From the NCBI RefSeq assembly GCF_001984155.1, contig NZ_MTQO01000049.1, forward strand, positions 496,001-560,000: DNA of 64,000 nucleotides. Direction: 5' to 3'. Position numbers and translations under genes: made by a program. This document shows, piece by piece, positions 13,510 through 62,884 of this stretch. How positions within the stretch are numbered: the stretch's first letter is position 1; each line of letters opens with the position of its first letter. Origin of the DNA: Actinosynnema sp. ALI-1.44. GTDB taxonomy: Bacteria; Actinomycetota; Actinomycetes; Mycobacteriales; Pseudonocardiaceae. The notes under the pieces are model-generated. The model was given only the letters and a program-made list of their open reading frames with translations, searched no databases and was not told the DNA's origin.

Positions 13510-13546
13510 GGGACACCTCTCTGCCGGTTCGGTCGTGGTCTCTCGG

Positions 13547-25527: not shown

Positions 25528-25798
25528 GATCCACTTCCTTTGCTTGGCGTTCATAGGGGAAACGATGGAGCCCGATCCGCACGGCCGCGGTGGTGGTTGC
25601 GGGCCACATCAGCCGTGCGGATCGGCGGGTTGACGCAGAGCAGGCGGTCTCAACGCGACAGACGTCGGCGAATCGTCCTGCGGAGCCACTACCTGCTCGA
25701 CACAGCGCCTACCCCACCACGCGGCAGATATTCCTGCCGCCGCTGGCCGCCATCCTGAGGCAAGGGATGACGACCACGTTCATTCCACTCACCAGCAA
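25528..25798. other. Intergenic region without a supported gene
   Basis: Upstream of the minus-strand aminotransferase-fold gene. Open frames here have no recognisable domain or clear start site. It should contain that operon's promoter, but no convincing -35/-10 pair or palindrome was found. Confidence 0.4.
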
Positions 25799-26131: not shown

Positions 26132-26465
26132 GAATCGTGGGTGTTGCTACATACGACCAAAGGAATCGGCGCTCCGAAACGGGGCAACTCAGAATCTGAG
26201 GTAGTTGCACCCATCAGCCTTGCGGAACGGACTACCCATCAGTGTGCGCGAAACCAACAGGTCCGTCCAGGGTCGGCCCTCGCCACCTGACAACCGGGGC
26301 CCACCTGCAACGACGTCGATGTACAGGCTGATACACCGTTGCCTCGACCGGGTGTACCAGGAACACAACTAGCGCTCTTCGTCGACCAATGGACTATGGT
26401 GGCGACACCATCCTTCCGGAATATCTTCTATCCCGTAGCAGATTTGCGAGCAACGCAAGGAGAGC
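26132..26465. promoter_or_regulatory. Upstream region of XRE/TPR regulator with short palindrome
   Basis: No gene supported. ATGGTG-GCGA-CACCAT at 26396-26411 is a perfect 6-bp inverted repeat 55 bp before the regulator start, a possible autoregulatory operator. AAGGAGAG lies just before the start codon. Confidence 0.35.
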
Positions 26466-27815
26466 ATGGTGAGCGCCGACGAAAGGACCGTCGCCACGAG
26501 TCCTGACTCTGCCGCAGAGCGTCTCGCATCCGAGATCCGCAGGCTGCGACGGAAATCCGGACTGAGCCAAGTCGACCTCGCAGCTGCGGCTGGCTACACC
26601 AGACAATACGTATCGCAAGCCGAGATACCCCGCAGGAACCTCCCCTCACTGGACTTGATTCGCACACTCGATGACGTCTTGACCGCCGAAGGACAACTGG
26701 TCGCCCTCCGCGAAGACGCACTGGTTGAGCGACAAGGACGGCGTGTTGTACTGCGCAAGCAACAGACAGCAGGATCCGGCGCTTCACCGGGCCCGACCAT
26801 CGCCTCCAGCAGGGGCACGGCGACCGCAACGGAAACCGACTCCATCACGACGCGCAAGATGGTCCGGGCATCCGCGCAGGACGCACGGTGGATCAGCTCC
26901 TGGATGGCCGCCACGAACGCCGGTGCACACGCAATCCAGATGTACCGCGATTGCCTGAAAGCATCATCCGCCGACTTCCTGCACCGACCTGCTGCCGAGG
27001 TGTTCAGCGATCTGGACAACATCCGGCGAGAACTGTTCAGCGACATCGAGGCTCGCCGTCATCACCCCCGGCACGACCACGAACTGCTCATGCTGCTCGG
27101 CATGACCTCCGTTGTGCTCGCCCATGCCTCCCACCTGCTCGGACACCCGAACGAGGGCATGACGCAGACTCGCCTCGCCCTGCAGTGCGCTGAGCAGATC
27201 GACCACGTAGAACTCGGAGCATGGGCATACGGCACCCAAGCACTCATCGCCGAAGGCCGAGGTAACCTTCATGAGGCGATCAGTCATGTCCGCCGGGCCC
27301 GTCAACACCTGGCCAGGTCCCGGATACCGGGCAGCGCCACCACGCAGTGTTCCCTGGCGACGGTCGAGCAGGCACAGGAAGTTCTGCGGCAAACGAACGA
27401 AGTAGCAGACCTCGACGACATCGGCGGGATCCTCGAGTTCCCAGCACCCAAAGCCTCGATGTACGCCGGCCAAGTGCACACGCTGATCAACCAGCCTCAA
27501 CTAGCCGAACAGCACGCCCAATCAGCCATCGACAGCTACCTCTCCGGCGAGCCCGAGTTGCGTTCGTACGGCGACATCGCGCTAGCCCGGATCGACATCG
27601 CCACGGCGCGACTCACAGCACGCGACCTGACCGGCGTCCACGACGCCCTCACCCCCGTCTTCAGCCTGCCCGTAGCCCTGCGCACCGAACACCTGCGGCC
27701 TTCACTCACTGCCTTGGCAACTGCCCTGACGTCAAAGTCAGGCAAAACCTCAGTCGGCGCCATCGAACTCCAGCAGAAGATCACGGCCTTCGCCGTCATG
27801 CCTTGCGTCGAATAG
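26466..27815 (+). CDS. XRE-family regulator with TPR-type sensor domain
   Basis: A 449-residue protein. The helix-turn-helix spans about residues 18-75 (LSQVDLAAAAGYTRQYVSQAE) and is followed by a linker and a long all-helical part with repeats such as HVELGAWAYGTQALIAEGRG, characteristic of TPR sensors. These regulators control morphological or antibiotic genes or bind peptides; this one's ligand is unknown. Its DNA-binding half is close to that of the protein at 29045-30622, though their C-terminal parts are unrelated. The phosphotransferase gene follows at once, so the two are probably cotranscribed. Confidence 0.88.
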   Translation: MVSADERTVATSPDSAAERLASEIRRLRRKSGLSQVDLAAAAGYTRQYVSQAEIPRRNLPSLDLIRTLDDVLTAEGQLVALREDALVERQGRRVVLRKQQTAGSGASPGPTIASSRGTATATETDSITTRKMVRASAQDARWISSWMAATNAGAHAIQMYRDCLKASSADFLHRPAAEVFSDLDNIRRELFSDIEARRHHPRHDHELLMLLGMTSVVLAHASHLLGHPNEGMTQTRLALQCAEQIDHVELGAWAYGTQALIAEGRGNLHEAISHVRRARQHLARSRIPGSATTQCSLATVEQAQEVLRQTNEVADLDDIGGILEFPAPKASMYAGQVHTLINQPQLAEQHAQSAIDSYLSGEPELRSYGDIALARIDIATARLTARDLTGVHDALTPVFSLPVALRTEHLRPSLTALATALTSKSGKTSVGAIELQQKITAFAVMPCVE

Positions 27816-28763
27816 GTGCGAGCACGAAAATCGAGGCTTGTGGCCAACCCCATCAGGAACGCCAGCGCTACGACCGAGATGCGCAATCGCCTGCAAACAG
27901 CGTGCTCGCACACCGGCCTACCCGCGTCCGGTGCGCAACTGCTGCACCACTACGCCAACGCAGTGTGGTTGCTACCCGAACATCCCGCCATCATCCGGAT
28001 CACCGACTCCGCATTCGCTCATCAGAAGGCGACCACGAACATCGCAGTCTGCCGATGGCTTGTCCAACACCAGCAGTTCCCGGCAACCGCACCGCTGACC
28101 ACGGACGTGATCCCCTTGGACGAGCACGCGGTCGCCACAGTGTGGACCTATTATCCCCAGCCACCCGACCTGTCCCCCACATCCACCGACCTCGCCGGTC
28201 TGCTTCGTCAGTTGCATGCGCTACCGTCACCACCATTCGAACTGCCTCGGTGGACGGCTTTGACCAGCCTGGAAGGGGTACTCAGAGACACCACGCGCCC
28301 CATCGCAATCGACGACTCGGACCGCCGGTGGCTCCTACAACGCATCGATTATTTACGCGACGAGCTTGCCCGTCTGGACTGGCGTTTGGGCGACGGGCAC
28401 ATCCACGGCGACGCGTGGGCGGGAAATCTACTGTGGAACGACACGGCCAACCCGAGAACGGTCCTACTCGGCGACTGGGACTCGGTCTCTTGGGGCCCGC
28501 GGGAGGTTGACCTGATCCCCACTTGGCACGCGGCGACCCGATTCGGCCGCGGACAGCAGTGGTCCGACGACTTCGCAGCCGAGTACGGATACGACCTCGC
28601 CCAATGGTCCGGCCTCCCCACCCTGTTCGCCATCCGAGACCTCGTGCAGCTTGTGGCGCTGCTCCGTCAAGTGCCGCGCCGACCAGGACTGGCAGGCGCG
28701 CTACGGCAACGTCTTAGCGACATCAGGACAGCTCACGGAACCGCTGTATGGAAGTCTTTCTAA
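27816..28763 (+). CDS. APH-family phosphotransferase (aminoglycoside/choline-kinase fold)
   Basis: The protein of about 305-315 residues is a protein-kinase-like phosphotransferase. The catalytic loop is GDGHIHGDAWAGNLLW (HGD...N) and the metal-binding aspartate is in LLGDWDSVSWG. The glycine-rich N-lobe is weakly defined. The GTG at 27816 directly follows the regulator's stop; GTG 27840 or ATG 27879 are possible starts. Relatives phosphorylate aminoglycosides, macrolides, homoserine or choline. With no matching resistance or metabolic gene nearby, the substrate is unknown. Cotranscription with an XRE regulator suggests a small stress or resistance module. Confidence 0.8.
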   Translation: MRARKSRLVANPIRNASATTEMRNRLQTACSHTGLPASGAQLLHHYANAVWLLPEHPAIIRITDSAFAHQKATTNIAVCRWLVQHQQFPATAPLTTDVIPLDEHAVATVWTYYPQPPDLSPTSTDLAGLLRQLHALPSPPFELPRWTALTSLEGVLRDTTRPIAIDDSDRRWLLQRIDYLRDELARLDWRLGDGHIHGDAWAGNLLWNDTANPRTVLLGDWDSVSWGPREVDLIPTWHAATRFGRGQQWSDDFAAEYGYDLAQWSGLPTLFAIRDLVQLVALLRQVPRRPGLAGALRQRLSDIRTAHGTAVWKSF

Positions 28764-29044
28764 CTAACCTATTCGTCAGCCCCGGCGAAATCGTCTGGAA
28801 TAGACCTATGGCGACCGGCAAACCACACTAGTGGTCACGGCCGGTTCGACAGCTTGACGCGCCTACGCCACCACGTGGGCACGTGAACAACGCTTTACAG
28901 TAGCATCGCATGCAACGACCCAACAGAGTTAATCAAGGCAGAGGTATGCCCTCCTGGCAAGTGAATGGGCTATCGTTACGCAACAACTGATCTGAAGCAA
29001 CCGCAGGCCGGTCACGGACTCGTGGAGACCTCTAGGAGCACGGC

Positions 29045-30622
29045 GTGGGTGGTAACGACAATCCCAGCACCCCGGAGCCGAACTCAGCGGCAGATCGCCT
29101 CGCAGCCGAGGTCAAAAGGCTACGACTGGGAGCTGGCTGGAGCCAAGTCGATCTCGCCGCCAGGGCTGGCTACACGCGGCAGTACGTGTCGCATGCCGAA
29201 GTAGCTCGCAGGAACCTTCCTTCGCTGGACTTGATACAGACACTCGACAATGTCCTGAACGCAAGCGGAAGCCTGCTCAAGCTCCGCGAGGAAGCATTGG
29301 TCGAGCAACGACAGCGCCGTGTAACGTCACACGACCGGTCGGCAGGAACATCGCGTCACCACAACACGACGATGGCGCAGGCCTTCACCAGTCCCGCCGT
29401 ACGCGAGTTCATCCAGACCGCCATACGCCTCTCCGACAACTCATCGCCCCTCAACGACGGTAATGCCACCGAGGTACTCGGACCCGACATCGCCGAGAAC
29501 GTTCGGCGAAGTCAGGAACAGTGGATTCGTGTGCGCCGCGCACCTGGCGCGCATGGGCGGGAACTGGCGGAACTCGCGGCGTGGCTGTACCCCAAAAGCC
29601 ACTGGGCGCCCGGAGGCCACGCGCTGGTGGGGTCCGATTGGCTCCTGGACAAGCCAGTGGAACTGGACTCCGTCCGGCTGACGTTCACCGACGCCGGACA
29701 TTCCACTCCGACGATCGAACCGAATGACCGGGTGCTGCCGTTGACGGCTCGTGGCAACCGCTACTCCAGCTACAGCAGGGCTGTCAGAGATCTCGTCCGT
29801 CCTCGCTTGCTGGAGAACCGGCTCAGTTACCGGCTCCTCGAGATATCGCAGCGGGGTGGGTTGTCGATGACGTTCGGCACTACCACGTTCTTCGAGGTGT
29901 TCGACGTCAAGGAATACCTCGCCCACGAGTTCAAAGCCGCCTGGCTGGCGTCCGGTGGATCGGTGCCGAGTTGGGACAGCCTGCCCTTGCGCCAATCCGT
30001 AAGTGACCCCTTCGATCCGGTCCGGCTGCTGATGTCGCCGGGAATCAGCACCTTGACCATCCGTAAGGATCGCCGCGGCGAGCACCGATTCGTCATGCAC
30101 CAGCGCGACGGAAAAGCAGTGGCTGACGGCGGAAGCATGTGCACCGTCATGCCTTCCGGCGAATTTCAGCCTTCATCGCTCGCCACAGTGGACGTGCACA
30201 ACGACTTCTCTCTGTGGCGCAACATCATGCGGGAGTACTCGGAAGAGTTCTACGGCAACCCGGAACACGACGGTAGTAGCGCCCGCTCGATCAACTACGC
30301 CGAGGAGGAGCCGTTTCGCAACTTCGAACAAGCACGTACCCAGGGCAGCTTCCAGCTATGGCACTATGGCCTTGTCATGGACGCTCTCACTCTCGGTGTG
30401 AACCAGCAAACCGTTGCAGTGATCGACGGTGACGTCTTTGACCAGCTGTTCGCCGGCCTTGTGCCGAGCAATGACGAGGGGCGCGTGATCGGCGAAGGCA
30501 GCCGCGCGGACTTGCCGTTCACCAGCGAAGCGATCGACCGGCTCAATCCTCGACTTTCGGCCAGTTCGCTGACGCTTCTCCGTCTGGCCTGGCGAGATCG
30601 ACAGATTTTGCTGGCGCAGTGA
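29045..30622 (+). CDS. XRE regulator fused to a large uncharacterised C-terminal domain
   Basis: A 525-residue protein starting at GTG 29045, with AGGAG 6 nt upstream. The first ~95 residues are an XRE helix-turn-helix with SQVDLAARAGYTRQYVSHAE, very similar to the regulator at 26466-27815. The remaining ~420 residues match no family I can name. They include an alpha/beta segment with YRLLEISQRGGLSMTFGTT and later LVMDALTLGVNQQTVAVIDGD, not the helical repeats of its neighbour. The tail may bind a nucleotide-like ligand, but no motif proves it. It is a good candidate for a new sensor domain. Confidence 0.8.
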   Translation: MGGNDNPSTPEPNSAADRLAAEVKRLRLGAGWSQVDLAARAGYTRQYVSHAEVARRNLPSLDLIQTLDNVLNASGSLLKLREEALVEQRQRRVTSHDRSAGTSRHHNTTMAQAFTSPAVREFIQTAIRLSDNSSPLNDGNATEVLGPDIAENVRRSQEQWIRVRRAPGAHGRELAELAAWLYPKSHWAPGGHALVGSDWLLDKPVELDSVRLTFTDAGHSTPTIEPNDRVLPLTARGNRYSSYSRAVRDLVRPRLLENRLSYRLLEISQRGGLSMTFGTTTFFEVFDVKEYLAHEFKAAWLASGGSVPSWDSLPLRQSVSDPFDPVRLLMSPGISTLTIRKDRRGEHRFVMHQRDGKAVADGGSMCTVMPSGEFQPSSLATVDVHNDFSLWRNIMREYSEEFYGNPEHDGSSARSINYAEEEPFRNFEQARTQGSFQLWHYGLVMDALTLGVNQQTVAVIDGDVFDQLFAGLVPSNDEGRVIGEGSRADLPFTSEAIDRLNPRLSASSLTLLRLAWRDRQILLAQ

Positions 30623-51698: not shown

Positions 51699-52868
51699 GT
51701 GCCAGTGGACAGACTGCCGCTGCGGGCGTTGCTCGCGTTCACGTTGACCGTGCTGCTCGGCTGCCTCACGGAGGTGTTGCCCGCGGGCCTGCTGCTGGGG
51801 ATGTCCGAGGACCTCGGGGTGTCGCCGTCCACGACGGGACAACTGGTCACGGTGTACGCCGTCACCACCGCCGTGACCGCGATTCCGTTGACGGCGTTGA
51901 CGTCCCGGCTGCCGCGCAAGCGGGTTCTGGTGGCGCTCGTGCTCGGGTTCGTCGTGACCAACCTCGTGATCGCCGTGTCCCCTTGGTATTCCGTGATCAT
52001 GGGTGCACGGGTGGTGTCCGGGGCGGTGACCGGTGTGATGTGGTCGCTGGTCGCGGTGTACGCGATGCGGATCGCGCCGCCCGCGCTGGCCGGACGGGCG
52101 CTGGCCGTGGCGATGGCGGGGACGCCCGTCGGGTTCGCGGCCGGCGTGCCCGCCGCGACAGCGCTCGGCGAACTCGTCGGCTGGCGTTGGTCGTTCGCGG
52201 CCATGGCCCTGATCGCAGTGCCGTTGCTGTTCTGGATTCTCGTTGTGGTGCCGCCGATCCAGGTCACCACCGCCGGGTCCGGCCGGACAACACCGGCTTC
52301 CTCGCCGTGGGCCGGAATGCGACCGGTGCTGCTGATCGTGTTCGCGTACTCGTTGGGGCACAACGTGCTCTACACCTACCTCGGTCCGGCACTGGCTCGG
52401 CTGGGCCGCGAAAACCTGGTGAGCACCGCCCTTCTGGCGTTCGGCGCGGCGGCGGTGTGCGGGATCGTCGTGGTCGGCTCCGCGCTGGACCGGTATCCCC
52501 GTGCCGTGCTTGCCTGGTGTCCCGCGTTGACCGCCGCCGGGATCGTCTCGCTGGCGTTGTCCGACGACGCTGGCCCGATCCTGCTGGCGTCCGCCCTGTG
52601 GGGTTTGGCTTTCGGTGGCGCTCCCACAGCGTTCCAGGCCGTCACCGCTCTGGTCGCGGGCAGAAGCGCCGACCGGGCCCAGTCGTTGACCATCGCCGCG
52701 TGGAACGGCGCCGTGGCCGCCGGCGCGGCGCTGGGCGGCGTGGTGTTGAACCACGCCGCCCCCGCTCTACCGTGGACCGCCGCCGTGCTGCTGGCGGTGC
52801 CGATTCTCACGGCGGTCCGGCTACCGCTGTCAGCGCGTGGAACTGACCACGCGCTCGTCAGCGAATGA
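51699..52868 (+). CDS. MFS transporter (drug/metabolite efflux, DHA1-like)
   Basis: A 389-residue protein with twelve predicted helices. The A-like motif is seen in LTSRLPRKRVLVALVLGFV and the motif C-like segment in AVAMAGTPVGFAAGVPAAT. The start GTG has GGAAGGAA 5 nt upstream. It resembles sugar- and arabinose-efflux-type (AraJ-like) exporters that often accompany biosynthetic genes. It could export the product of either neighbour. Its stop is only 6 bp from the stop of the convergent acyltransferase gene, with no room for a separate terminator. Confidence 0.88.
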   Translation: MPVDRLPLRALLAFTLTVLLGCLTEVLPAGLLLGMSEDLGVSPSTTGQLVTVYAVTTAVTAIPLTALTSRLPRKRVLVALVLGFVVTNLVIAVSPWYSVIMGARVVSGAVTGVMWSLVAVYAMRIAPPALAGRALAVAMAGTPVGFAAGVPAATALGELVGWRWSFAAMALIAVPLLFWILVVVPPIQVTTAGSGRTTPASSPWAGMRPVLLIVFAYSLGHNVLYTYLGPALARLGRENLVSTALLAFGAAAVCGIVVVGSALDRYPRAVLAWCPALTAAGIVSLALSDDAGPILLASALWGLAFGGAPTAFQAVTALVAGRSADRAQSLTIAAWNGAVAAGAALGGVVLNHAAPALPWTAAVLLAVPILTAVRLPLSARGTDHALVSE

Positions 52869-52874
52869 GACCTT

Positions 52875-54656
52875 TCACGCTCCCGCCAGCAGATCGATCA
52901 GTTCACTCAGGGAGTCGCGCAGAGCGTCGGCGAACGCGTGCATCTGCTCCGCGACCGGTTGGGGCGTGCTCAGGTACACGTTGAGGCGACCGGGCAACAG
53001 GACGTAGGCGACGCCGATGCAGCGACTGCTGGTCGAACCGAACCCGAAGTACTGGATGTTGTGCGACGGGGCCGAACTCGTGCTCAGGTAGTCGTCGCGC
53101 ATGATCTGCCAGCCCGGGGACTCGTACAGCGCCAACGGCTCGGTCGCGCCGAGTTCGGCGCCGCGGCGCCGCTGGATCATCTGCAGCTCCCACAGGTGCT
53201 GTTCCGGCGCCTGCCCGGCCTGGCACTGCTTGGCCCTGGCCACGTGCTTCGCCCCGGCTTCGGCCAACGCCGCCCGACGGGTCGCCGCGTCCGCGTCGGG
53301 ATCCTGCATGGCCTGCACGAACCGCACCATTTCCGGTGTCACGACGCGCATCGCCTCGGTGCGGCCGTTCTGGAACTGCCGTGTGGCGATCGACTCGTAC
53401 GTGGCGCCGGTCAGCCCCTTGGCGCGGTAGTGGGCCAACTGGTACGCGGCCTGGACGAAAGCGTCCGGCGACATGCCGAGCTGCTTGATCCGATCGGTCC
53501 CGATGTCCGCGAAGGACAGTTCGGTCGTCGCGGTGGCCGCCGCGTAGTTCGCGAACGCCTGACCCGCGGCCTCGACGTCGACTCGCAGCGCGTCGCCGAG
53601 GACGAACCGGATCGGTTCCACCTTCGGGATGCCGCTGCCCGGTGTGCCCGGGTCCACCGGCGTGCCGACGACCTTGTCGACGAACGCGAGGATCGTGGTG
53701 CCGTCGAGCAGGCAGTGCTCCACGTTGATTCCGGCCTGGCCGTCGGCGAACACGACGAACGTCACCGCTTTGTCGAACCACCGGTTGGCGCTGTCGCCGT
53801 GCAGCAGGGCATCACAGGCAGCCAGCTTGTCCGCGGGCGCGTCGCTCTCCAGAGACACGCAGAACAACGCGGTTTCGACCACGTCCAACGCCTCGGCGTT
53901 CGCCGGGTCCTCGGCGATCAGGGCCTCGCGGCTGGCCGCCCACGCCGCCCTGGCCTTGGTCGTGAGGTGCCCGACGGGACTGTAGTGGGCTTCCTCACCG
54001 GCCAGGACGCTGCGCAGGCCGTCGGCGAGTTCGCTGGTCGCGTACGGCTTGCCCTGCTCGTCGAGTACGTCCATCCGGAACATCCGCCCGCGGTGGAAGA
54101 CGACGATGTGCCGGGCAGGCGAAGGGCCCGGCCATTCGTCGCCGTAGGGGGCGCGCACGGTGTCCTGGTCGGCGCCGGGGATCCGGGTGGCCGAGAACAG
54201 GTACTTGTGCTGCAGCATCGACTGGGCCTGGCCGCGCAGCACCACCGGTGGCAGTTGCTCCGCGTCCACCAACGCCTTGTACGCCAACGACGACGCGATC
54301 AACCCGGTCGCCCGGTCCACCTGATCGGCGCCCCGGGCGTCCTGGAACAGGAAGAAGAAGTTGGCGTTGAGGGCGATCCGGTCCCGGCGGCCGAGGTACC
54401 GCGTCCGCCAGAAGTCGTCCAACCAGCTGAGCACACCCGGGCTGTCGTTGTAGCGCTCCAGGTCGGCGTGCAGGACGTGGGCGGGACTGTCCGGTGCCAG
54501 GAACGCGGCCACCGCGGCCTCCGTCGTGGCCAACTCGTCCGCGGTGAGCAGCGGCGCGCACCACTCCAGCAACAGCGAACAGCTGTCATCGAGTGTGGGC
54601 AGCGGCACGCGGGGCAGCAGGCCTTCGTTGCTGAAGGTGGTGGTCAAGTCCCTCAT
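52875..54656 (-). CDS. Choline/carnitine O-acyltransferase family protein
   Basis: The 593-residue protein has the length and motifs of carnitine/choline acyltransferases. The catalytic histidine is H314 in GINVEHCLLDGTTI (family EH-x3-DG), GRTEAMRVVT matches the RTE-x-R substrate motif, and VYLSTSSAPSHN-type sequence gives the STS motif (DDYLSTSSAPS). The ATG at 54656 overlaps the methyltransferase stop, so the two are coupled. These enzymes move acyl groups between CoA and the hydroxyl of carnitine, choline or similar betaines and are rare in bacterial biosynthetic loci. With a methyltransferase and an oxygenase next to it, I infer acylation of a hydroxylated betaine-like product. Confidence 0.88.
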   Translation of the reverse strand: MRDLTTTFSNEGLLPRVPLPTLDDSCSLLLEWCAPLLTADELATTEAAVAAFLAPDSPAHVLHADLERYNDSPGVLSWLDDFWRTRYLGRRDRIALNANFFFLFQDARGADQVDRATGLIASSLAYKALVDAEQLPPVVLRGQAQSMLQHKYLFSATRIPGADQDTVRAPYGDEWPGPSPARHIVVFHRGRMFRMDVLDEQGKPYATSELADGLRSVLAGEEAHYSPVGHLTTKARAAWAASREALIAEDPANAEALDVVETALFCVSLESDAPADKLAACDALLHGDSANRWFDKAVTFVVFADGQAGINVEHCLLDGTTILAFVDKVVGTPVDPGTPGSGIPKVEPIRFVLGDALRVDVEAAGQAFANYAAATATTELSFADIGTDRIKQLGMSPDAFVQAAYQLAHYRAKGLTGATYESIATRQFQNGRTEAMRVVTPEMVRFVQAMQDPDADAATRRAALAEAGAKHVARAKQCQAGQAPEQHLWELQMIQRRRGAELGATEPLALYESPGWQIMRDDYLSTSSAPSHNIQYFGFGSTSSRCIGVAYVLLPGRLNVYLSTPQPVAEQMHAFADALRDSLSELIDLLAGA

Positions 54657-55510
54657 CCTCGTGGTTGGTGCTGACCTGCCACTCCGTCCGCGGCAGGGGT
54701 GGAACCGGCGCTGCCGGGAGGTCGGCAGACACGCAGCTGGGCGTACAGCCAACCAGTGTCCTCCAGCCCGCGCGGATCGATGCCCCGTGAGTGCAGCGTG
54801 TCCAGGACCTGGTCGCGCTCCTCGTCGGAGACGAACCGCCGCTGCCGGAACACCCCGTCGACCAGTTCGATGTCATACCCCATCGCGCGCAGGCACTCCT
54901 CGATGGGGTCGAACGGCACCATCCGCAGCACGAAGTGGGCCATCCACGGCCGGTGGTCGCCGTCGACTGTGGCCAGTCGGGTGATGGTGCGGGCACCGAC
55001 GTACCCGATGCAGCCGGTGGAGATCACCAGGTCGGTGCCGGACAGCCGGGCACGCTGGGATTCGGTGAGGTCGCCGGTTTCCAGGTCGGCGCAGACAGTC
55101 TCGTCCAGCAGCCCGGACGCGTACGCGTAGTCCAGCGCGGGCCGAGACGAGTCGAAACCGACAATCCGGGCGCGCGACTGACCGTCCGCGAACCGCTTCC
55201 GGTCGCGAGCCAGCACCTCTTCGCGGTCCATGGCGCCGACGATCGGGTCGGTATACCACTCGTACAGTTCGTCCATGGTGGCGCCGCCGTTCAGCAACGC
55301 CGCGTTGATGCCGTATGAACACCCGACATCAAGCACCCGCACAGTCCGGCCGAGTCGCGTCTGCCGCTGCCGGATCAAATCGGCGAAGTACGGCGCCGCG
55401 AGTTGGGGTATGCAGTACTCGAACTCGCGCAAAGTCGTGAAGTAAGCGCGTGGATCGGCCTGCGTGTAGATGTGGTCGAGGGAGACTTTTCCGGTGGTGT
55501 CATAAGGCAC
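54653..55510 (-). CDS. Class I SAM-dependent methyltransferase
   Basis: A 285-residue enzyme; the SAM motif is VRVLDVGCSYGINAALL near residue 57. GTG at 55510 is chosen because GAGGAG lies 8-9 nt upstream; the long upstream extension in this frame is arginine- and cysteine-rich noise. The start of the product, YDTTGKVSLDHIYTQADPRAYF, and the later FDSSRPALDYAYASG suggest a small-molecule N- or C-methyltransferase. It is not of the EgtD, RebM or DnrK types. It is coupled by 4 bp to the carnitine acyltransferase gene and lies 19 bp after the oxygenase gene. Confidence 0.82.
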   Translation of the reverse strand: MPYDTTGKVSLDHIYTQADPRAYFTTLREFEYCIPQLAAPYFADLIRQRQTRLGRTVRVLDVGCSYGINAALLNGGATMDELYEWYTDPIVGAMDREEVLARDRKRFADGQSRARIVGFDSSRPALDYAYASGLLDETVCADLETGDLTESQRARLSGTDLVISTGCIGYVGARTITRLATVDGDHRPWMAHFVLRMVPFDPIEECLRAMGYDIELVDGVFRQRRFVSDEERDQVLDTLHSRGIDPRGLEDTGWLYAQLRVCRPPGSAGSTPAADGVAGQHQPRG

Positions 55511-55529
55511 GCGCCGCACTCCTCTGAGG

Positions 55530-56399
55530 TCAGTCGAGCAGGCGGTCCCCACGGACCGCGCGGAACTCGGCCGCGGTGTGCTCCGGTAGCACGCGGCCGA
55601 ACAGCTGCCTGGTGCGTTCGACACTACCCATGACGCCTGGTCGCTCGCTGTAGGCGAAGATCGCCGTGTGTCGTGCGGTGCCGCCGGTGACCTCGGTGAC
55701 GCGGTGCAGGGAATACCGGCCCTTGAACAGTTGGAGATCACCAGGGGCCAACGTCAGCCGTCGTGGCAGGTCGGGTCGCGTGCCTGCCAGCACGCCCGCG
55801 ACGTCCTCGAAGTTCTCCGCGTCGGCCGACCGGATGTTCGGACAGTACTCGAAGTCGCCGCCCTCCGCCGATTCCTGCGTGAGCATGCTGACTGTGTACT
55901 CGTTGGTGTCGAAATGCCACGGGTGTGCGCGTCCGGGCGCGATGACGTTGAGGCAGAGACCGGACAGCGGATCAGCCAGTTCGTACAAGGCAGGCAACCG
56001 GAAACAATCCGCGACGAAGCGCTGGAACAACGTGCTCGTGTACAGCTGTTGTAGGACGGAGTCGGCCGGGATCTGGTCACGGGCCACGAAGGCGTTGCCG
56101 CGTTCCATCGTGACCCTGCCGGGGTGGCCGTCGGGCAACGGCGTGCCGACCGCGATGTTGTAGGCGTTCACCACTTCGACCTGGCCATGGGCCAGCGGGG
56201 CGACCCCGGCGCACTCCCGCTGGACGGTGTCGCGCAGCTCGGGCCGGATGAAGTCGGACAGCACGCAGCAGCCCACGCGATCCAGTTCGCGCCGCGCGTG
56301 ATCGACAGCCGCGCGCCACGCCGCACTGCCGGGATCCGACAGGGGGTAACGATCCGTGTCGACTACCTTTCCCGGTGCCGCGACGACCGGTCGTTTCAT
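55530..56399 (-). CDS. Fe(II)/2-oxoglutarate oxygenase (phytanoyl-CoA-dioxygenase-like)
   Basis: A 289-residue oxygenase. The iron ligands are H162 and D164 in HPWHFDTNEYTV and H232 in YSLHRVTEV; R243 in GGTARHTAIFAY probably binds 2-oxoglutarate. The jelly-roll spacing is normal for PhyH-type enzymes. The start at 56399 was chosen at MKRPVVAAPG, where the conserved part begins. Enzymes of this fold hydroxylate amino acids and betaines; gamma-butyrobetaine hydroxylase, which makes carnitine, is a more distant 2-oxoglutarate enzyme. Next to an acyltransferase of the carnitine family, hydroxylation that creates the acylated alcohol is an attractive inference. Confidence 0.88.
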   Translation of the reverse strand: MKRPVVAAPGKVVDTDRYPLSDPGSAAWRAAVDHARRELDRVGCCVLSDFIRPELRDTVQRECAGVAPLAHGQVEVVNAYNIAVGTPLPDGHPGRVTMERGNAFVARDQIPADSVLQQLYTSTLFQRFVADCFRLPALYELADPLSGLCLNVIAPGRAHPWHFDTNEYTVSMLTQESAEGGDFEYCPNIRSADAENFEDVAGVLAGTRPDLPRRLTLAPGDLQLFKGRYSLHRVTEVTGGTARHTAIFAYSERPGVMGSVERTRQLFGRVLPEHTAAEFRAVRGDRLLD

Positions 56400-56574
56400 G
56401 CGTGGGATCCCTTTCCCTGGTTGCCGTCCTGCGATCGCAGTCAAGCTTCCCGGCTGCGCACCCCGCACGGCTGCCTTTTTGTGATCTGCTCCACCAAAGT
56501 CTGGCAGACCCAGGTGCCTGCGCCTGCTGTTCCTTGTTACCCCACAACGCCTCGGCAGCACCAGGGCTCATCCG

Positions 56575-57780
56575 TCATCGACGAGAGCCATCACGGTCGG
56601 CAGCCGGTGTGCCGGTGACAGGGAAGCCGTCGACCGCCGGTGCCGGGGTGGCAGTGTCGGCACTGTCCTCAAGCAACTGGGCGACGGCCTGGTTTCCCGC
56701 GTAGGTGATGAGTTCGAGCAATGAGCCGTCGGGGTCACGGAAGTACAGGCTCGTACCCGCGCCCCGCGCTCCGGGCCTGGTAACCGGGCCGAGTTCCACG
56801 GCCACGTCGTGGCGCGCGAGGTGCGCCGCGGCGTCGGCCACCGTTCCGGTCCAACGGAAACACAGGTCCGACCCGCCTGGTGTCACAGGAACGCGTGCGA
56901 CGGGCACAGGGGCCATCCCGGGACCGTGCACGTTGAGATGCTGGGCACCGAACCGGTAGACGAACCCTTGCCCTGTGGCTATGACAGTGGCCCCGAGGAC
57001 ATCGCTGTAGAAGGTGTTGGAGCGGTCCCAGTCGGTGACACTGATGACACAGTGGTCCATGGCCACCATCACCTTGCCGGGTGTCCGGCCGGGTGCCAGT
57101 GCCAGATCGAGCGCGGCCTCGCAGTGCAGTGCGGTGGTTGCGAAAACCGGGACATCGAGGTGCTCCTGGCTGACGCTGAGTTCGAGTTCGGCGCAGCCGA
57201 GGACGACGCCTCCGGCCCCGGCGTCGACGAGGGACCGGGCGATGCCGAGCAGCCGGTCACGCGATGCGGGGTCGACCCGTCCGACGCAGAGCTCGTCGTA
57301 GATGATCCGCTGAACCGCCTGCCGGTCCGCCTCGTCCGGGACCAGCGTCCGGATGCCGTGCGCTTCGAGCCGGTCGCGGTAGAAGGATTGCTCCATTGTG
57401 TACTTCGTGGCGAGCAACCCCACCGTGGTCACGCCGGACGCGGTGACCGCATCGGCGGTGACGTCCCCGAGGTGCAGTACCGGGATCGTGACGGCGGCTG
57501 CGACCTCGTCGTACACCTTGTGCATCGTGTTCGTCGCGATGAGCACGAACGACGCACCCGCTGCCTCCAGTGACCGCGCCTCCTGAGCGAGCACGGCTGC
57601 CGCCGCGGCCCAGTCGCCCTCCTCCTGCATCCGCGCGATCGGCGCGAAGTCGACGGTCGCCACCCGCAACCGGGCGGAGTGCAGTCCGCCGAGGCGGGCC
57701 CTGGTCCCCTCGTTCAACCGGCGCAGGTACTCCGCCGTCGATTCCCAGCTCATGCCGCCGATGACGCCGATCAGTTCCAT
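56575..57780 (-). CDS. Fusion of Asp/Glu-type racemase (YgeA-like) and VOC domain
   Basis: The 401-residue protein has two domains. Residues 1-240 are an aspartate/glutamate racemase: GVIGGMSWEST, T83 in IATNTMHK and C196 in VVLGCAELE match the unusual Thr/Cys catalytic pair of E. coli YgeA. Residues 255-375 form a VOC domain (MDHCVISVTDWDRSNTFYSDVLG, ending SLYFRDPDGSLLELITYAG). ATG 57780 is the natural start; the frame extends upstream without conservation. This fusion is unusual. It may racemise an amino acid precursor and then catalyse a metal-dependent step or bind the product. It belongs to the same minus-strand set as the oxygenase. Confidence 0.87.
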   Translation of the reverse strand: MELIGVIGGMSWESTAEYLRRLNEGTRARLGGLHSARLRVATVDFAPIARMQEEGDWAAAAAVLAQEARSLEAAGASFVLIATNTMHKVYDEVAAAVTIPVLHLGDVTADAVTASGVTTVGLLATKYTMEQSFYRDRLEAHGIRTLVPDEADRQAVQRIIYDELCVGRVDPASRDRLLGIARSLVDAGAGGVVLGCAELELSVSQEHLDVPVFATTALHCEAALDLALAPGRTPGKVMVAMDHCVISVTDWDRSNTFYSDVLGATVIATGQGFVYRFGAQHLNVHGPGMAPVPVARVPVTPGGSDLCFRWTGTVADAAAHLARHDVAVELGPVTRPGARGAGTSLYFRDPDGSLLELITYAGNQAVAQLLEDSADTATPAPAVDGFPVTGTPAADRDGSRR

Positions 57781-57841
57781 GACGTCCAGACTCCGCGATC
57801 GACTAGGAAAGTAAAAGCGGAAGTCGGTGACGTCACCTGGT

Positions 57842-58384
57842 TCAGAGATCCGGGAGCACGTCACCGGCGTCCGGGTAGCGACCCTGTTCCAGGCGGAAGA
57901 TGTAGCCCCGGAGGTCCGCCCTCAGGTCACCCGCCAGGTACGTGAGGAACTCGCGCGCCCCTTCAGCGGCGTCGCGGTCGTAGCGGTCGACCTCGCCGCT
58001 CCACTCGCTGAGCAACGCCGTGACATGCTCCTCGACCCGGTCTCGCTGCTCCCACCAGGCGCGGACGGCGTCCGGTGTCCACCGGGAGTCGCCGTCGCAG
58101 GCGTAGCCCTGGAAGGGATCCGCTTCGGCGGCGGCCAGCAGGCAGTCGACCTCCGTCGGGGTCTTGGGCTGGCGGAAGACGAACTCGTTGTAGTACTCGC
58201 CGCCGTAAAGGACGTGGTGTGGCGCATGCAGCCGTCCGGTCCAGCAGTTGTCGGTACTACCCGTGTAGAAGGGGCCTGGCACGTTCAGCCAGTGCTTCTC
58301 CGCCCATTTCTTGCCGTCGTCGGGCGGGAAGAAGCCTGGCGGAACGTGCGAGGTCGGATCCCATGGCGCGGGCGTGTCAGTCAC
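57842..58384 (-). CDS. Uncharacterised W/Y-rich protein (180 aa)
   Basis: Not recognised. The product begins VTDTPAPWDPTSHVPPGFFP and contains HWLNVPGPFYTGSTDNC and GGEYYNEFVFRQPKTPTEVD, rich in Trp, Tyr, Pro and His; the rest is helical with many acidic residues. It has no signal peptide or membrane segment. The GTG at 58384 was chosen over an ATG at 58405 because similarity-like composition begins here. It sits 61 bp from the racemase-VOC gene and 55 bp from the methyltransferase gene on the same strand, so it is likely part of the pathway. The composition suggests ligand or cofactor binding. Confidence 0.72.
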   Translation of the reverse strand: MTDTPAPWDPTSHVPPGFFPPDDGKKWAEKHWLNVPGPFYTGSTDNCWTGRLHAPHHVLYGGEYYNEFVFRQPKTPTEVDCLLAAAEADPFQGYACDGDSRWTPDAVRAWWEQRDRVEEHVTALLSEWSGEVDRYDRDAAEGAREFLTYLAGDLRADLRGYIFRLEQGRYPDAGDVLPDL

Positions 58385-58439
58385 AGCACCAGCATCCCGC
58401 AGCACCTACGGGCGCCGCCACCTCCGGCGATCCACCTGC

Positions 58440-59279
58440 TCAGGAAGCTCGTTCCGCCCGCAGCAGGATGTAGTCCTGAGAGCTGACGAACAGGCCGGTG
58501 TAGAGGGCCGCGCTCTGCGTCGCGCCCGCCAGGCCTTCCTCGCCCGCGACCGCGAGCAGGTCGTCGCGTCGCTCCTGCACCACGTCGACCAGCATGGGAG
58601 CACTGGGGCGGATGTCGTCGGCCAGCGAGCGGATCGTCACCTCGCGGAACCCGTTCTGCTCCGCCGCCTTTCCGGCCTCCTGCGCGGTGACCAACGGGAC
58701 CGCGCACAGCGCCTTCACGGACAGCTCGATGTCGTCGTCGGACATCGGCGTGCCCAGCGCGTAGTCCGCGACCACCAGGACCCCGCCTGGCTTGAGCACC
58801 CGCGCGATCTCCGCGAAGGCCGCTGCCTTGTCGGCCACGTGGAACAGGATCGATTCGATCGCGTAGGCCGCGTCGAACGAGTTGTCGGGGAACGGCATGT
58901 CGACGATGTCGCCGACCGCGAAGTCCACTGCGGACACCCCGGCCCGTTCGGCCGCGTCGGTGGCCGCCGCGACCTGCTGGGGGCTGAGGTTGATCCCCGT
59001 GACGCTCACCTGGTGACGGCGTGCCGCCAGCATCGCCGGGCCGCCGACGCCGCAGCCGAGGTCCAGCACCTTCTGGCCCGGCCGCAACCCGCAGGCGTCC
59101 AGTACTTCCTCGTTCATGTGGGCCTGTGCCTCGACGATCGTGGTGGCGCCTCGACCGCAGTAGCCTGCGTGCACGGAGCCGTCGAACAACGCCGAGAACG
59201 GCTCGGTGACGGCGTCGTAGAACCCGGCGACCGCCGCGGCGTTCCCGTTCGATCCGGGCTTGTCGTCTACTATGGACAT
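58440..59279 (-). CDS. SAM-dependent methyltransferase, RebM/sterol-type
   Basis: A 279-residue enzyme; SAM motif VLDLGCGVGGPAMLAA, post-motif YAIESILFHVADKAAAFAEIARVLKPGG. N-terminal YDAVTEPFSALFDGSVHAGY is characteristic of RebM-like O- and N-methyltransferases that act on secondary metabolites. ATG 59279 has GAGGTGA 7 nt upstream. It is separated from the exporter gene by 84 bp and could start its own transcript or continue from upstream. Together with the enzyme at 54653-55510 it gives two methylation steps in the set. Confidence 0.87.
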   Translation of the reverse strand: MSIVDDKPGSNGNAAAVAGFYDAVTEPFSALFDGSVHAGYCGRGATTIVEAQAHMNEEVLDACGLRPGQKVLDLGCGVGGPAMLAARRHQVSVTGINLSPQQVAAATDAAERAGVSAVDFAVGDIVDMPFPDNSFDAAYAIESILFHVADKAAAFAEIARVLKPGGVLVVADYALGTPMSDDDIELSVKALCAVPLVTAQEAGKAAEQNGFREVTIRSLADDIRPSAPMLVDVVQERRDDLLAVAGEEGLAGATQSAALYTGLFVSSQDYILLRAERAS

Positions 59280-59363
59280 AAGTGGTTCACCTCGTGACGG
59301 GGATCTGGGCAGTTCGCTGCGAATACATCCGTCCACCTCGGCCGACGCTACCCAGGTCGGCTC

Positions 59364-61151
59364 TCAGTGCGGTCTCGCCGCCTCCGGGCCGTACAGCCGC
59401 CGCATTTGCGGTGAGGTGTCGAGAAGTTCGAGCAGGGTGCCTCGTGCGACCACACTGCCGCTGTCGAGCAGCACGATCTGGTCCGCCCGCTCCAGCACCG
59501 CCCGTCGGTGCGACACCGCCAGAACCGTCACACCGGCGCTGAACACCATCCGCCAGAGTTCCCGTTCGGTCTCCACGTCCAAAGCGCTGGACAGGTCGTC
59601 CATGACCAGCAGTTCGGGGTCGCGGGCGAACATCCGGGCCGCTGCCGTGCGTTGGATCTGCCCGCCGGACAGGCGAACACCGCGGACGCCGATCTCGGTG
59701 TCGAGCCCGTCCGGCATGCTCGCCACATCGGGGCCGAGCACCGCGCGACGGACCGCGTCGGTCACCACGCCGCCATCGTCAGGCAGACCGAGCAGGATGT
59801 TCTCGCGCAACGTCCCGGACACCAGCGTGGGTGTCTGCGCGGTGTACGCGACCCGCGGCGGAACCAGGAAATCGCCGGGATCGGCCACCGCCCTCCCGTT
59901 CCAGTCGATCTCACCGCCCTGCCGGTCCAACAGGCCGAGCAGTGCGCGCAGCGTGGTGGTCTTCCCGGCGCCCATCGGTCCGGCGACGACGGTGACGCTC
60001 CCCCGCTCCACCCGCAGCGACACGTCATCGATGCCCCGCTCCGATCCGGGGAACCGGTAGGTCAGCCCGGTGGCGTTCAGCACATCGAGCGGCTCGTCGG
60101 CCCGCCGCGGCGGTACGTCGACCGGCGCGTCCGACTTCAGGTACAGCGGATGGTGCTTCACCACGTCCATCGGCGGCGCCCCTTGCATCAACTCCACCGA
60201 CCGGTCCAGCGACACACGCACCTGCTGGAACGTCCTGACCAGATAGCCGATGAAGCCGGTGTACGACGCGACCTGCATCAGATACGTGGCGAACAGGACG
60301 AAATCGCCGATGGTGAAGTCACCGCTGCGCATCGCGCCCGCGGCCGTCAGCAGGATCAGCCCGGCGCCCAGGCTGGCGGTGCTGTTGAAGACGGCGTCCA
60401 GCGCGTAGCTCTGCGTCTTGTCACGGACCATCGCGTGCCTGCGCTCGTCGCCTTGCCGCGCCAGGTGCGCGACCACGTTGTCCTGCGTGCCTGCCGCCTG
60501 GATCGCCCGCACCGCGACCACGATCTCGCCGATGGTGCCGGTGACCTGCGCGGTCGCCGCACGGCTTCGCTCCCGCAGTGTGTGCGCCCGCGCCTTGGCC
60601 AGTTGGGCCAGCGCGATCACGCAGATCATCGGGACCATGACCAGCAGCGTCACCCGGGCGTCCACGCTGATCAGGATGGCGAGCCCGGTGGACGCGAAGA
60701 TCACCGCCGACAGCGCGTCGAACCCCCAGTCCCCCATCAGCGAGATGGCCTCGGAATCGTCACGGAGGGTGGAGATCCCCGCACCGACGTTGCCCGGCAT
60801 CGCCCGCGCACCCGGCCGTTCGAACAGGCGCGCGAGCAGGTTGCGCTGTACGAGCCCCCGAGTGCGCACGTGCCAGCCCGCCACGGCGACGGTGGCGCCG
60901 AAGATCGACGCCATCCTGGCCAGGCCCGCCGCGACCAGGATCGCGACGATGGTCGTGAGGTTCAGTTCGGCCTCGGTACCGCCTTCGAGCGTGTCGAACA
61001 ACGCCTTGCCGAGCACACCGGGCAACAGCGGCCACAGGTGGAAGATCATCCAGCCGACCGCCGAAGCCGCGTACAGCCCGCGGTGGAACGCCATCACCCG
61101 CAGGATGGTCCGCAGGGTGAACCACTTTCCCTTGCCCCCGCGTGTCTTCAC
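59364..61151 (-). CDS. ABC exporter half-transporter with altered Walker B (subunit 2 of pair)
   Basis: A 595-residue protein with six membrane helices and a C-terminal ATPase. Walker A is VAGPMGAGKTT and the signature VRLSGGQIQR is canonical, but Walker B reads LLVMDDLSSALD, so the catalytic glutamate is aspartate. The start overlaps the stop of the partner gene by 4 bp. Together with the partner's altered signature this gives one weak and one strong ATP site, as in asymmetric heterodimeric exporters such as TM287/288. It is the likely efflux pump for the product of the genes that follow. Confidence 0.9.
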   Translation of the reverse strand: MKTRGGKGKWFTLRTILRVMAFHRGLYAASAVGWMIFHLWPLLPGVLGKALFDTLEGGTEAELNLTTIVAILVAAGLARMASIFGATVAVAGWHVRTRGLVQRNLLARLFERPGARAMPGNVGAGISTLRDDSEAISLMGDWGFDALSAVIFASTGLAILISVDARVTLLVMVPMICVIALAQLAKARAHTLRERSRAATAQVTGTIGEIVVAVRAIQAAGTQDNVVAHLARQGDERRHAMVRDKTQSYALDAVFNSTASLGAGLILLTAAGAMRSGDFTIGDFVLFATYLMQVASYTGFIGYLVRTFQQVRVSLDRSVELMQGAPPMDVVKHHPLYLKSDAPVDVPPRRADEPLDVLNATGLTYRFPGSERGIDDVSLRVERGSVTVVAGPMGAGKTTTLRALLGLLDRQGGEIDWNGRAVADPGDFLVPPRVAYTAQTPTLVSGTLRENILLGLPDDGGVVTDAVRRAVLGPDVASMPDGLDTEIGVRGVRLSGGQIQRTAAARMFARDPELLVMDDLSSALDVETERELWRMVFSAGVTVLAVSHRRAVLERADQIVLLDSGSVVARGTLLELLDTSPQMRRLYGPEAARPH

Positions 61152-62884
61152 TCCAGCACCTCCCCGGCCCGGCAGAGCTCGGCCAGCCGTGAGGCGGGTT
61201 CGCCGAGCAGGTCACGTGTGGCGCCGTGTTCGGTGACGCGTCCGCCGTCGATGACGGCCACGGTGTCCGCCCGTCGAATCGTGTCCAACCGGTGCGCGAT
61301 CACCACGCACGTGCGGTTCTCCAGCAGCCGGTCGAGCGCTCGTTCGAGCAGGTGCCCGGTTCCCGGATCGAGGCGGCTCGACGGCTCGTCCAGGATGACC
61401 AGCCCGGGGTCCTTGATGAACACCCTGGCCAGCGCGATCAGCTGGGCCTGCCCAGCCGACACGCTGGAGCCGGAGATCCGGGTGTCCATGCCGTCGGGCA
61501 GTGCGGTCAGCCATGGCCGCAGGCCCAGTGTGTGCAGGATGTCGAGCAGACGGGCGTCGTCCACCCCGGTGTCGAAGAACGTGAGGTTGTCGCGGACGGT
61601 CGCGTCGAAGATGTGCACGTCCTGGGTGACGAACCCGATCCGCGACCGCAGGGACTTCAGGTCCGCGTCCTTGACGTCGACTCCGCCGAGGCGGACCTGG
61701 CCGTGCCGTGGGTCGTACATGCGGAACAGCAGGTGGGCCATGGTGGTCTTGCCCGCACCGGTGCGCCCGACCAGCCCCAGAGTGGCGCCGGGTTCGATGC
61801 TCAGAGTGAGGTCGCGCAGCACCTTGCTGCCGGGATCACGCTCATAGGAGAACGTCACGTCACGGAACTCCACCGACAGAGGACCGGACGGCAGCGGCTT
61901 CGTCCCGTTGCGGAGCTTGGAGGAAACGGCGAGCAGTTCCGACACGCGCCACATGGCGGCGGTCGCGCGTTGCAGGTGCTGCAGTTGCTCCCGGATCACT
62001 TCCATGGGCGTGGCGAGCATGACCGAGTACGTCACCACCAGGTACACGTCGCTCAGTGGCACGGCACCGGCTTGGAAAAGGCCGCCGCCCAGCCCGAACG
62101 ACACCGCGGCCAGTGCGACGAAGACCATCGAGACGACGATCCAGATCAGACTGCCCCACGCCTCCGCACGGACCTTCACCGGCAGCCACGTGCGCAACTG
62201 GCGGTGGAAACGTGCCATCGCGTAGGAAACCGCCGACGAGGAACGGATGTCCTCTGTGGCACGCAACGCCTCGCTCACATAGCCGAAGAACAGCGCGCTC
62301 TGTTCCCTGTCTGCCTGCCATCGTGGGCCTGCCATCCGGGAAACCCGTTGCAGCAGGAGCATGCCGACGACGACGACGCCCGTGCAGGCGGCGCCGATCC
62401 GCCAGTCGATCACGAAGAGGGAAACCAGGATGAACACCAGCAGCAGCATGTTGCCGAGCAGGCGGACGATCAGGGTGGAGAAGAACTGGGCGATCTCGTT
62501 GACGTCGCCGTCGATCCGTTCGATCAGCTCGCCGGGCGAGCGCGATTCGTGGAAGGTCAGATCGAGGTTCAGCACGTGTGCGGTGAGATCGGCGCGCAGG
62601 GCGTTCGTGGCTGTCCAGGCGACGCGTTCGCTGGCGAAGGACGCCAGCACGTGCATCACCTGGCGGGCCAGCGCGGCGCCGAGGAAGACGAGCGCGATCC
62701 GCAGCAAGGTCTCCTCGCTCGCACCGAGCTGCACGGATTCGATGAAGTAGCTGACGATTCTCGGTTCCGCGACCTCGACGACGATGCTGCCGAGCAGTAG
62801 CGCGACCATGAGGATCACGCTGGTGCGCTGTGGTCTCAAGTACTTGCGCAGAAAGACCCAGTTGCTGTCCGAAGTCCTTGGCAT
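61148..62884 (-). CDS. ABC exporter half-transporter with altered signature motif (subunit 1 of pair)
   Basis: A 578-residue protein with six membrane helices (residues 20-300) and an ATPase domain: Walker A VGRTGAGKTT, Walker B LVILDEPSSRLD and H-loop VVIAHRLDTI are canonical, but the signature reads SVSAGQAQLI rather than LSGGQ. The altered signature of this subunit faces the altered Walker B of its partner, so both defects fall in the same composite site. It is preceded by the SDR gene 63 bp upstream on the same strand. Confidence 0.9.
   Translation of the reverse strand: MPRTSDSNWVFLRKYLRPQRTSVILMVALLLGSIVVEVAEPRIVSYFIESVQLGASEETLLRIALVFLGAALARQVMHVLASFASERVAWTATNALRADLTAHVLNLDLTFHESRSPGELIERIDGDVNEIAQFFSTLIVRLLGNMLLLVFILVSLFVIDWRIGAACTGVVVVGMLLLQRVSRMAGPRWQADREQSALFFGYVSEALRATEDIRSSSAVSYAMARFHRQLRTWLPVKVRAEAWGSLIWIVVSMVFVALAAVSFGLGGGLFQAGAVPLSDVYLVVTYSVMLATPMEVIREQLQHLQRATAAMWRVSELLAVSSKLRNGTKPLPSGPLSVEFRDVTFSYERDPGSKVLRDLTLSIEPGATLGLVGRTGAGKTTMAHLLFRMYDPRHGQVRLGGVDVKDADLKSLRSRIGFVTQDVHIFDATVRDNLTFFDTGVDDARLLDILHTLGLRPWLTALPDGMDTRISGSSVSAGQAQLIALARVFIKDPGLVILDEPSSRLDPGTGHLLERALDRLLENRTCVVIAHRLDTIRRADTVAVIDGGRVTEHGATRDLLGEPASRLAELCRAGEVLE

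Follow-up and report, generated by a model that had tools for sequence, protein, structure and literature searches.

A conserved oxygenase-acyltransferase cassette with an optional methyltransferase in Actinosynnema and related actinobacteria: a possible acyl-betaine pathway

A 64,000-nucleotide stretch of the genome of Actinosynnema sp. ALI-1.44 (contig NZ_MTQO01000049.1, positions 496,001 to 560,000), hereafter the window, carries three adjacent genes that encode an Fe(II)/2-oxoglutarate oxygenase (OX), a predicted class I S-adenosylmethionine (SAM) methyltransferase (MT) and a member of the choline/carnitine O-acyltransferase family (CAT). Comparison across genomes revealed that OX and CAT form the core of a cassette, in which MT is optional. 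We propose, with a probability of about 0.5, that this cassette makes an O-acylated hydroxy-betaine, namely a carnitine-like ester carrying a short acyl group, which would serve the cell itself. The features of the cassette in the window are as follows.

52875-54656, minus strand: CAT, choline/carnitine O-acyltransferase family, ATG start, 593 residues
54653-54656, minus strand: stop/start overlap of MT and CAT, ATGA, 4 bases, read from the sequence
54653-55510, minus strand: MT, predicted class I SAM methyltransferase, GTG start, 285 residues
55530-56399, minus strand: OX, Fe(II)/2-oxoglutarate oxygenase, ATG start, 289 residues

A gap of 19 bases lies between the genes of OX and MT, whereas those of MT and CAT share the four bases ATGA, by which the two are likely translationally coupled. 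The longer open reading frames (ORFs) listed for the three genes are upstream extensions of these same genes. OX contains the triad H162-x-D164...H232, and CAT contains H314 in addition to the motifs R432-T433-E434 and S525-T526-S527, so that the adjacency, the motifs and the overlap given in a preliminary description of this DNA are all present. Searches of the 11.7 Mb host genome reported a single match each for CAT, MT and OX. The closest named relatives come from Kibdelosporangium, with an OX identity of 82-83%. A scan of positions 52700-59500 found zero promoter-like sites and two terminator-like sites, a number equal to that in shuffled sequences.

The conservation of the cassette was assessed on 249 genomes of the order, taken in one even draw (genomes and loci are given G and L numbers below). 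The CAT family PF00755 was found in 28 genomes and OX in 27, with 26 genomes having both, two CAT only (G018 and G050), one OX only (G049, a weaker match) and 220 neither. This co-occurrence gives a Fisher p of ~8e-32, a value inflated by the relatedness of the genomes. According to the listed coordinates, OX and CAT are adjacent in all 26 genomes with both, or are separated by a gap that fits MT only. Moreover, the pair varies jointly within genera, as the listed genomes of g2 and g11 hold either both or neither. MT has a match in just 22 of the 26 genomes (none in G149, G174, G227 and G247), and in G224 it lies ~2.1 Mb away from OX-CAT; we therefore regard OX-CAT as the cassette core and MT as optional.

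A separate search for MT in 298 genomes of the order yielded 32 matches, with loci obtained for 30 of them at first, and those of G082 and G224 read later. OX and CAT stand beside MT in 25 of the 29 non-self loci; the exceptions are L011, L029 and L031, which show MT alone on a short stretch, and L030, which has CAT and MT without OX. Inspection of 53 named OX loci revealed the order OX-MT-CAT in 38, OX-CAT-MT in three and CAT-OX-MT in one, in addition to OX-CAT without MT in three, OX and CAT on opposite strands without MT in three, OX-MT followed by the contig end in one (L105) and OX alone in four. The trio that the preliminary description suggested looking for elsewhere is thus recurrent. 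CAT is present in 48 of these 53 loci. Among the five without it, L103 and L110 stop just past OX, L105 stops just past MT, and OX itself is cut in L113 and L114, with no CAT in the 6 kb after OX of L114. Of eight named genomes picked for having no MT seen beside OX, six gave zero MT matches genome-wide, and the other two gave one elsewhere. Of these eight, L103 and L110 were picked because the contig ends there, and L092 and L096 correspond to G149 and G174; the MT-less sets from the 249- and 298-genome searches and from the eight named genomes overlap, some G and L loci being the same genomes.

The pairwise distances of OX, MT and CAT correlate with each other (Pearson 0.81-0.88, Spearman 0.48-0.64, 0 of 500 permutations) over 65 sets, composed of the window and 64 loci with three complete genes, some genomes being present twice. 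The correlation fits inheritance as a unit, and shared ancestry alone could yield the same. The MTs that accompany OX-CAT split into two deep clades, one with the order OX-MT-CAT and the other with OX-CAT-MT (the partial MT of L109 was left out), which suggests repeated recruitment or an old rearrangement. Genera that carry the cassette include Amycolatopsis, Streptomyces, Saccharopolyspora and Nocardia. Across 392 genomes sampled from the whole phylum, PF00755 was reported in five, one of which is a weak 59-residue match that probably arose by chance. An origin from plasmids or phages was rejected, with zero CAT matches on plasmids and zero OX matches in phages. Two loci are unusual. L079 (CAJCJE010000026.1), a metagenome-assembled genome labeled 'Melainabacteria', has an actinobacterial-looking OX-MT-CAT with 67% identity in OX and is probably a binning error. 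In L093 from Streptomyces clavifer, the best MT match spans only 112 of 285 residues, possibly owing to a frameshift or decay between OX and CAT. The open-access literature, to which our search was largely confined as most subscription papers lay outside it, gave no account of an OX-MT-CAT cassette, and nothing on CAT in actinomycete clusters or Amycolatopsis, on actinobacterial carnitine biosynthesis or on acylcarnitine in Streptomyces.

CAT matches PF00755 with 527 bits over profile positions 1-573 of 574, and thus belongs to the same fold family over its full length as the solved enzymes carnitine acetyltransferase (CrAT), CPT2 and COT. Alignment against these enzymes showed that CAT keeps the catalytic His, the TYES...GRTE block, the STS motif and the aromatic Phe at the F566 position; residues H314, Y420, S422, T433, S525, S527 and F539 of CAT align with H343, Y452, S454, T465, S552, S554 and F566 of CrAT, respectively. 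The numbering of CrAT H343 follows a published account (PMC11852590). H314 is invariant in all 27 CATs of our alignment A2, the loci of which were chosen for diversity. In CrAT, R518 is the partner of the carnitine carboxylate, the positions of F566 and S554 form the trimethylammonium pocket, and M564 is the acyl-gate site that governs chain length; choline acetyltransferase has an Asn at the R518 position.

Despite sharing these residues, CAT differs from CrAT, CPT2 and COT at several sites. The Arg of the DRH motif, corresponding to CrAT R518, is replaced by Gln (Q486), the segment xDRHL becoming PEQHLW, in all 74 extracted CATs. Among these are 68 distinct C-terminal sequences, and Gln is present in 68 of 68; OX is the neighbor of 67 of them, whereas the CAT of L059 has only MT at its side. 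By contrast, the Arg expected of a carnitine acyltransferase proper is kept in the alignments of CrAT, CPT2 and COT. The DRH motif is also kept in L164, an actinobacterial CAT from a genome without an OX match (G440), which indicates that the change to Gln belongs to the present CAT subfamily. Because this Arg is replaced, carnitine is probably not the acceptor. The acyl gate is a Phe in 66 of the 68 sequences and a Trp in the other two (L059 and L108), compared to a Met in CrAT and a Gly in CPT2, and the small gate residue of a CPT-like long-chain enzyme was found in none of them. Long-chain acyl transfer was rejected on this residue, which argues for a short acyl group, although the step from gate to chain length leans on work on CrAT M564. 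In addition, a GSTSxxCIG-like sequence replaces the PVVPDGYG loop, and the gene lies beside that of an oxygenase. The Gln and the gate residue of CAT suggest an acceptor that is carnitine-like yet different, and an acyl group that is short.

Searching OX against Pfam revealed PF23169 (HalD), with 40.5 bits, as the sole family at an E-value of 0.001, and no family of the oxygenases GBBH and TMLH. The latter combine a TauD-like domain with a GBBH-like N domain (PF06155); a search of the genome for PF06155 returned zero matches, as did its control, so that genome-wide absence is unproven. Structural similarity search of the AlphaFold2 model of OX (predicted local distance difference test score, pLDDT, of 89.4) using Foldseek found only BesD, HalA, HalB, HalD and a BesD-like hydroxylase at ranks 1-41 of 50 PDB rows, with 14-18% identity and a TM-score of ~0.5-0.7. 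The model thus places OX in the BesD/HalD fold group, which includes the BesD-like lysine hydroxylase (PDB 7JSD), rather than with the oxygenases of the carnitine pathway, whose kinship the preliminary description had implied. H162, D164 and H232 are invariant in all 32 OX sequences of alignment A1, the loci of which were chosen for diversity, and in all 24 comparison rows, L109 being present in both sets. As the Asp ligand is kept, OX is of the hydroxylase type and not of the halogenase type. A role as a halogenase was rejected, for every row has the carboxylate of HxD, and none shows its loss to HxG/A. Compared to the BesD/HalD halogenases, OX is also distant in sequence, and some of its relatives stand in contexts of methylated zwitterions. 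The literature searched offered nothing usable on the substrate residues of BesD, nor on what the individual residues of CrAT and choline acetyltransferase do.

MT matched zero families of Pfam and NCBIfam at an E-value of 0.001, and its profile found nothing usable in the PDB. The AlphaFold2 model (pLDDT of 91.3) gave weak and mixed best matches in the PDB, namely the plantazolicin methyltransferase, a tyrosine O-methyltransferase, NNMT and C-methyltransferases. Alignment A3, which left out the MT rows of L074 and L107 (a stop lies inside the matched stretch) and the row of L100, revealed a conserved DxGCSYG-like region. We assign MT to the class I SAM methyltransferases, within a family that has no name.

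The genes around more distant OX relatives point to a class of substrates. In Caballeronia, an OX relative of 50% identity is followed by genes of a DddP-like M24 protein, an OpuAC binding protein, a ProW/choline-type permease and a ProV-family ATPase, and Pseudomonas MPC6 has two OX copies plus an M24 gene. An OX relative on a Rhodobacteraceae plasmid is accompanied by an ATP-binding cassette (ABC) importer, an MttB-family gene, a class III aminotransferase gene and a betaine-aldehyde-dehydrogenase-like gene, and that of Mesorhizobium by MttB-family, Ldh-family and GbcA-like Rieske genes. OX relatives of less than 60% identity occur on 92 plasmid records, of which six were inspected and four have a neighbor of the methylated-zwitterion type. 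Among 15 OX relatives from genome stretches (L146-L160), a DddP-like M24 gene adjoins the OX relative in three (L147, L148 and L150, equal to L118, L124 and L123, respectively). For the DddP-like proteins of these loci and of L166 (6868-8094), DddP is the best NCBIfam match, with 240-411 bits against a cut-off of 600. A 3-hydroxyisobutyrate-dehydrogenase-like gene stands beside two of the 15, one of which is also a DddP-like case. An OX relative together with a DddP-like M24 protein, and in Caballeronia with a betaine-type importer, may possibly form a module for the degradation of betaines or sulfonium compounds. In addition, the gene of the formaldehyde-activating enzyme (Fae) adjoins the OX relative in five of the 15, four found by Pfam and that of L159 by eye, at the following positions in actinobacterial genomes.

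L151: 2277-2789, Fae beside the OX relative
L152: 8417-8920, Fae beside the OX relative
L153: 7184-7711, Fae beside the OX relative
L155: 7127-7636, Fae beside the OX relative
L159: ~8042-8686, Fae beside the OX relative

These neighbors suggest that some OX relatives release formaldehyde by oxidative demethylation, and the Fae-linked relatives may thus be a family of 2-oxoglutarate-dependent oxidative demethylases coupled to formaldehyde capture. Taken together, the gene contexts of the relatives argue that methylated zwitterions are the substrates of much of the OX family. Within the cassette itself, the MT-less locus L092 (equal to G149) has two ProW/choline-type permeases (58-69 bits, below the cut-off) and, by eye, a quaternary-amine binding protein, all divergent from OX, which fits the import of a methylated precursor where MT is missing. 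No such importer was seen by eye in the stretches covered of the other inspected loci without an adjacent MT (L064, L094, L096, L098, L104, L173 and L175). In L173, ectA- and ectB-like genes (13189-15161, by eye) lie ~2 kb from the MT-less OX-CAT pair, a weak hint toward an intracellular buffer or compatible-solute role.

In the proposed pathway, MT would N-methylate an amino acid to a betaine, which might instead be imported where MT is missing. OX, the catalytic machinery of which is present, would hydroxylate a C-H bond of this betaine using Fe(II), O2 and 2-oxoglutarate, the class of substrate being suggested by the gene contexts of its relatives. CAT, likewise with its machinery in place, would move a short acyl group between coenzyme A (CoA) and the new hydroxyl, as the two site residues suggest for acceptor and chain length. 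The product probably resembles acetylcarnitine without being a carnitine ester, given the Gln. Its likely role, similar to that of acetylcarnitine, would be to buffer acyl groups and CoA or to act as a compatible solute in acylated form, rather than to be secreted as an antibiotic-like compound, since the wide distribution of the cassette without a constant neighbor fits an intracellular role. Going further, and only tentatively, the cassette might represent an actinobacterial carnitine-like system of its own, in which a new betaine, hydroxylated by an enzyme of the BesD fold that in many cases works with a methyltransferase of its own, is reversibly short-acylated by a re-tooled CAT and acts as an acyl carrier or acyl-CoA buffer. 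As a guess, the product of such a system could be a shortened 'norcarnitine', the carboxylate of which would not reach the lost arginine.

Several observations weigh against the acyl-betaine proposal. Q486 also occurs in the CATs of two genomes that have no OX (L059 and L161), and it thus marks the CAT subfamily and not the product of OX as such. The solved structures nearest to OX (BesD, HalA, HalB and HalD) bind free amino acids, where a substrate is named, and not betaines. MT could methylate oxygen or carbon, and MTs exist without OX or CAT in the examined stretch (L058, L060, L061 and L062). The betaine context comes mostly from OX relatives at 31-50% identity, whose function may differ, and the DddP-like, MttB-family and permease matches are all under the curated cut-offs. 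Moreover, six of the 15 relatives (L149, L154, L156-L158 and L160) show none of the Fae, DddP-like and 3-hydroxyisobutyrate-dehydrogenase-like genes, and the loci of Pantoea (L171) and Enterobacter (L170) are without quaternary-amine or sulfonium genes.

As for these outlying loci, L170 and L171 have an OX relative of 33-34% identity, once annotated as 'arpA protein'. A LysR-type gene in divergent orientation accompanies it in both loci, as do a DUF2817 gene and the gene of an ABC substrate-binding protein, and many plasmids of Pantoea, Klebsiella and Enterobacter carry a similar OX relative. In the four loci of MT without OX or CAT, the methylated product may serve a separate purpose.

Three other pathways would account for parts of the same evidence. 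De novo synthesis of carnitine and acetylcarnitine, with MT making gamma-butyrobetaine from gamma-aminobutyric acid, OX serving as a gamma-butyrobetaine hydroxylase of unrelated origin and CAT acting as an ordinary carnitine acetyltransferase, would agree with the betaine-type genes near some OX relatives, with gamma-butyrobetaine being imported where MT is missing, and with CAT itself, which retains most of the carnitine-site residues and, among PDB entries, resembles the carnitine enzymes more than the choline enzymes. However, the R518-equivalent Arg is Gln in every distinct CAT yet Arg in CrAT, CPT2, COT and L164, and OX lies outside the fold group of the classical hydroxylases; we consider this pathway unlikely. 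A pathway without quaternary amines, in which OX hydroxylates a free amino acid, CAT acetylates the hydroxyl and MT methylates O, C or N once, draws on the lysine or ornithine ligands in the solved structures closest to OX, on the range of N-, O- and C-methyltransferases among the structural matches of MT, and on the OX-CAT pairs in genomes without an MT match (six of the eight selected). It is somewhat easier to accept but still improbable, as several OX relatives stand in a quaternary-amine context and CAT keeps the F566 and S554 positions that presumably form the trimethylammonium pocket. The cassette might also run in a catabolic or salvage direction, deacylating or modifying imported betaines for degradation, much as distant OX relatives are found alongside importers, Fae and MttB-family genes in operons that look catabolic. 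This direction seems very improbable, for none of those genes is a constant partner of OX-CAT, and the SAM cost of MT, which is usual (22 of 26), fits synthesis better.

The preliminary description had envisaged a secreted acylcarnitine-like natural product made with an upstream racemase and exported by pumps, and both sets of genes do exist side by side with the cassette in this one window.

56575-57780, minus strand: Asp/Glu racemase fused to a VOC domain (PF01177 and PF00903), probably not part of the cassette
59364-62884, minus strand: two adjacent ABC-transporter-type genes (open frames and tblastn matches to ABC-ATPase regions), probably not part of the cassette

The racemase with a C-terminal VOC/glyoxalase domain in one ORF is not known to be a common architecture, and its gene is separated from that of OX by 175 bases. 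The racemase-VOC gene, a hypothetical gene, a second methyltransferase gene and the ABC pair have no counterparts (>30% identity over half the length, using simple gene calls) in 31 other MT stretches of 13-18 kb, of which 25 hold the whole cassette. They are likewise unmatched in the 53 named loci, where the flanks extended to 6 kb at most, save for ABC matches of 29-31% in L091 and L092, and both Kibdelosporangium loci are without them. Elsewhere, the neighbors of the cassette vary by genus and look ordinary, such as MetH- and HisG-like genes in one genus (by eye). On this non-conservation, the racemase, the hypothetical gene, the second methyltransferase and the pumps were rejected as members of the cassette, of which they are probably no part, and a secreted product loses its support; in these stretches and flanks, the conserved co-occurrence with pumps or tailoring genes expected of a secreted-product cluster was not seen. 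We thus find the secreted natural product not supported and consider it highly improbable. The betaine idea is partly supported, on evidence other than that originally put forward: homology and gene context fit a betaine-like hydroxylation and O-acylation with optional methylation, whereas carnitine itself is doubtful. Apart from the cassette, positions 22001-30000 of the window have a G+C content of 0.62-0.63, compared to ~0.68 elsewhere, with a partly stronger AT skew, and are possibly acquired DNA.

Carnitine acyltransferases are known mainly from eukaryotes, where the carnitine pathway comprises TMLH, GBBH/BBOX and CrAT. The cassette resembles this pathway in combining methylation, 2-oxoglutarate-dependent hydroxylation and O-acylation, but differs in the oxygenase group, the lack of a constant aldolase or dehydrogenase neighbor and the altered acceptor site of CAT. 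Bacterial catabolic operons for quaternary amines and dimethylsulfoniopropionate (ProXWV, DddP, MttB and GbcA) contain distant OX relatives; unlike them, the cassette has CAT, usually MT, and no constant catabolic partner. A CAT-family enzyme outside fatty-acid transport is described for the carnitine-acyltransferase domains of fungal polyketide synthases, such as that of luteodienoside A (PMC10901484). In contrast to these domains, the CAT of the cassette is a stand-alone bacterial enzyme without a polyketide synthase.

The cassette is a widespread and as yet uncharacterised variation on carnitine-type acylation. As a defined three-gene set, it makes the bacterial retention of a carnitine acyltransferase directly testable, using two proteins and a small number of candidate substrates. 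It may also supply a hydroxylase lineage for the oxidation of betaine C-H bonds, within a fold group known from its solved structures mainly for halogenases. Should the product turn out to be a new acyl-betaine, members of the genera Amycolatopsis, Streptomyces, Saccharopolyspora and Nocardia would contain a metabolite that has so far gone unrecognised.

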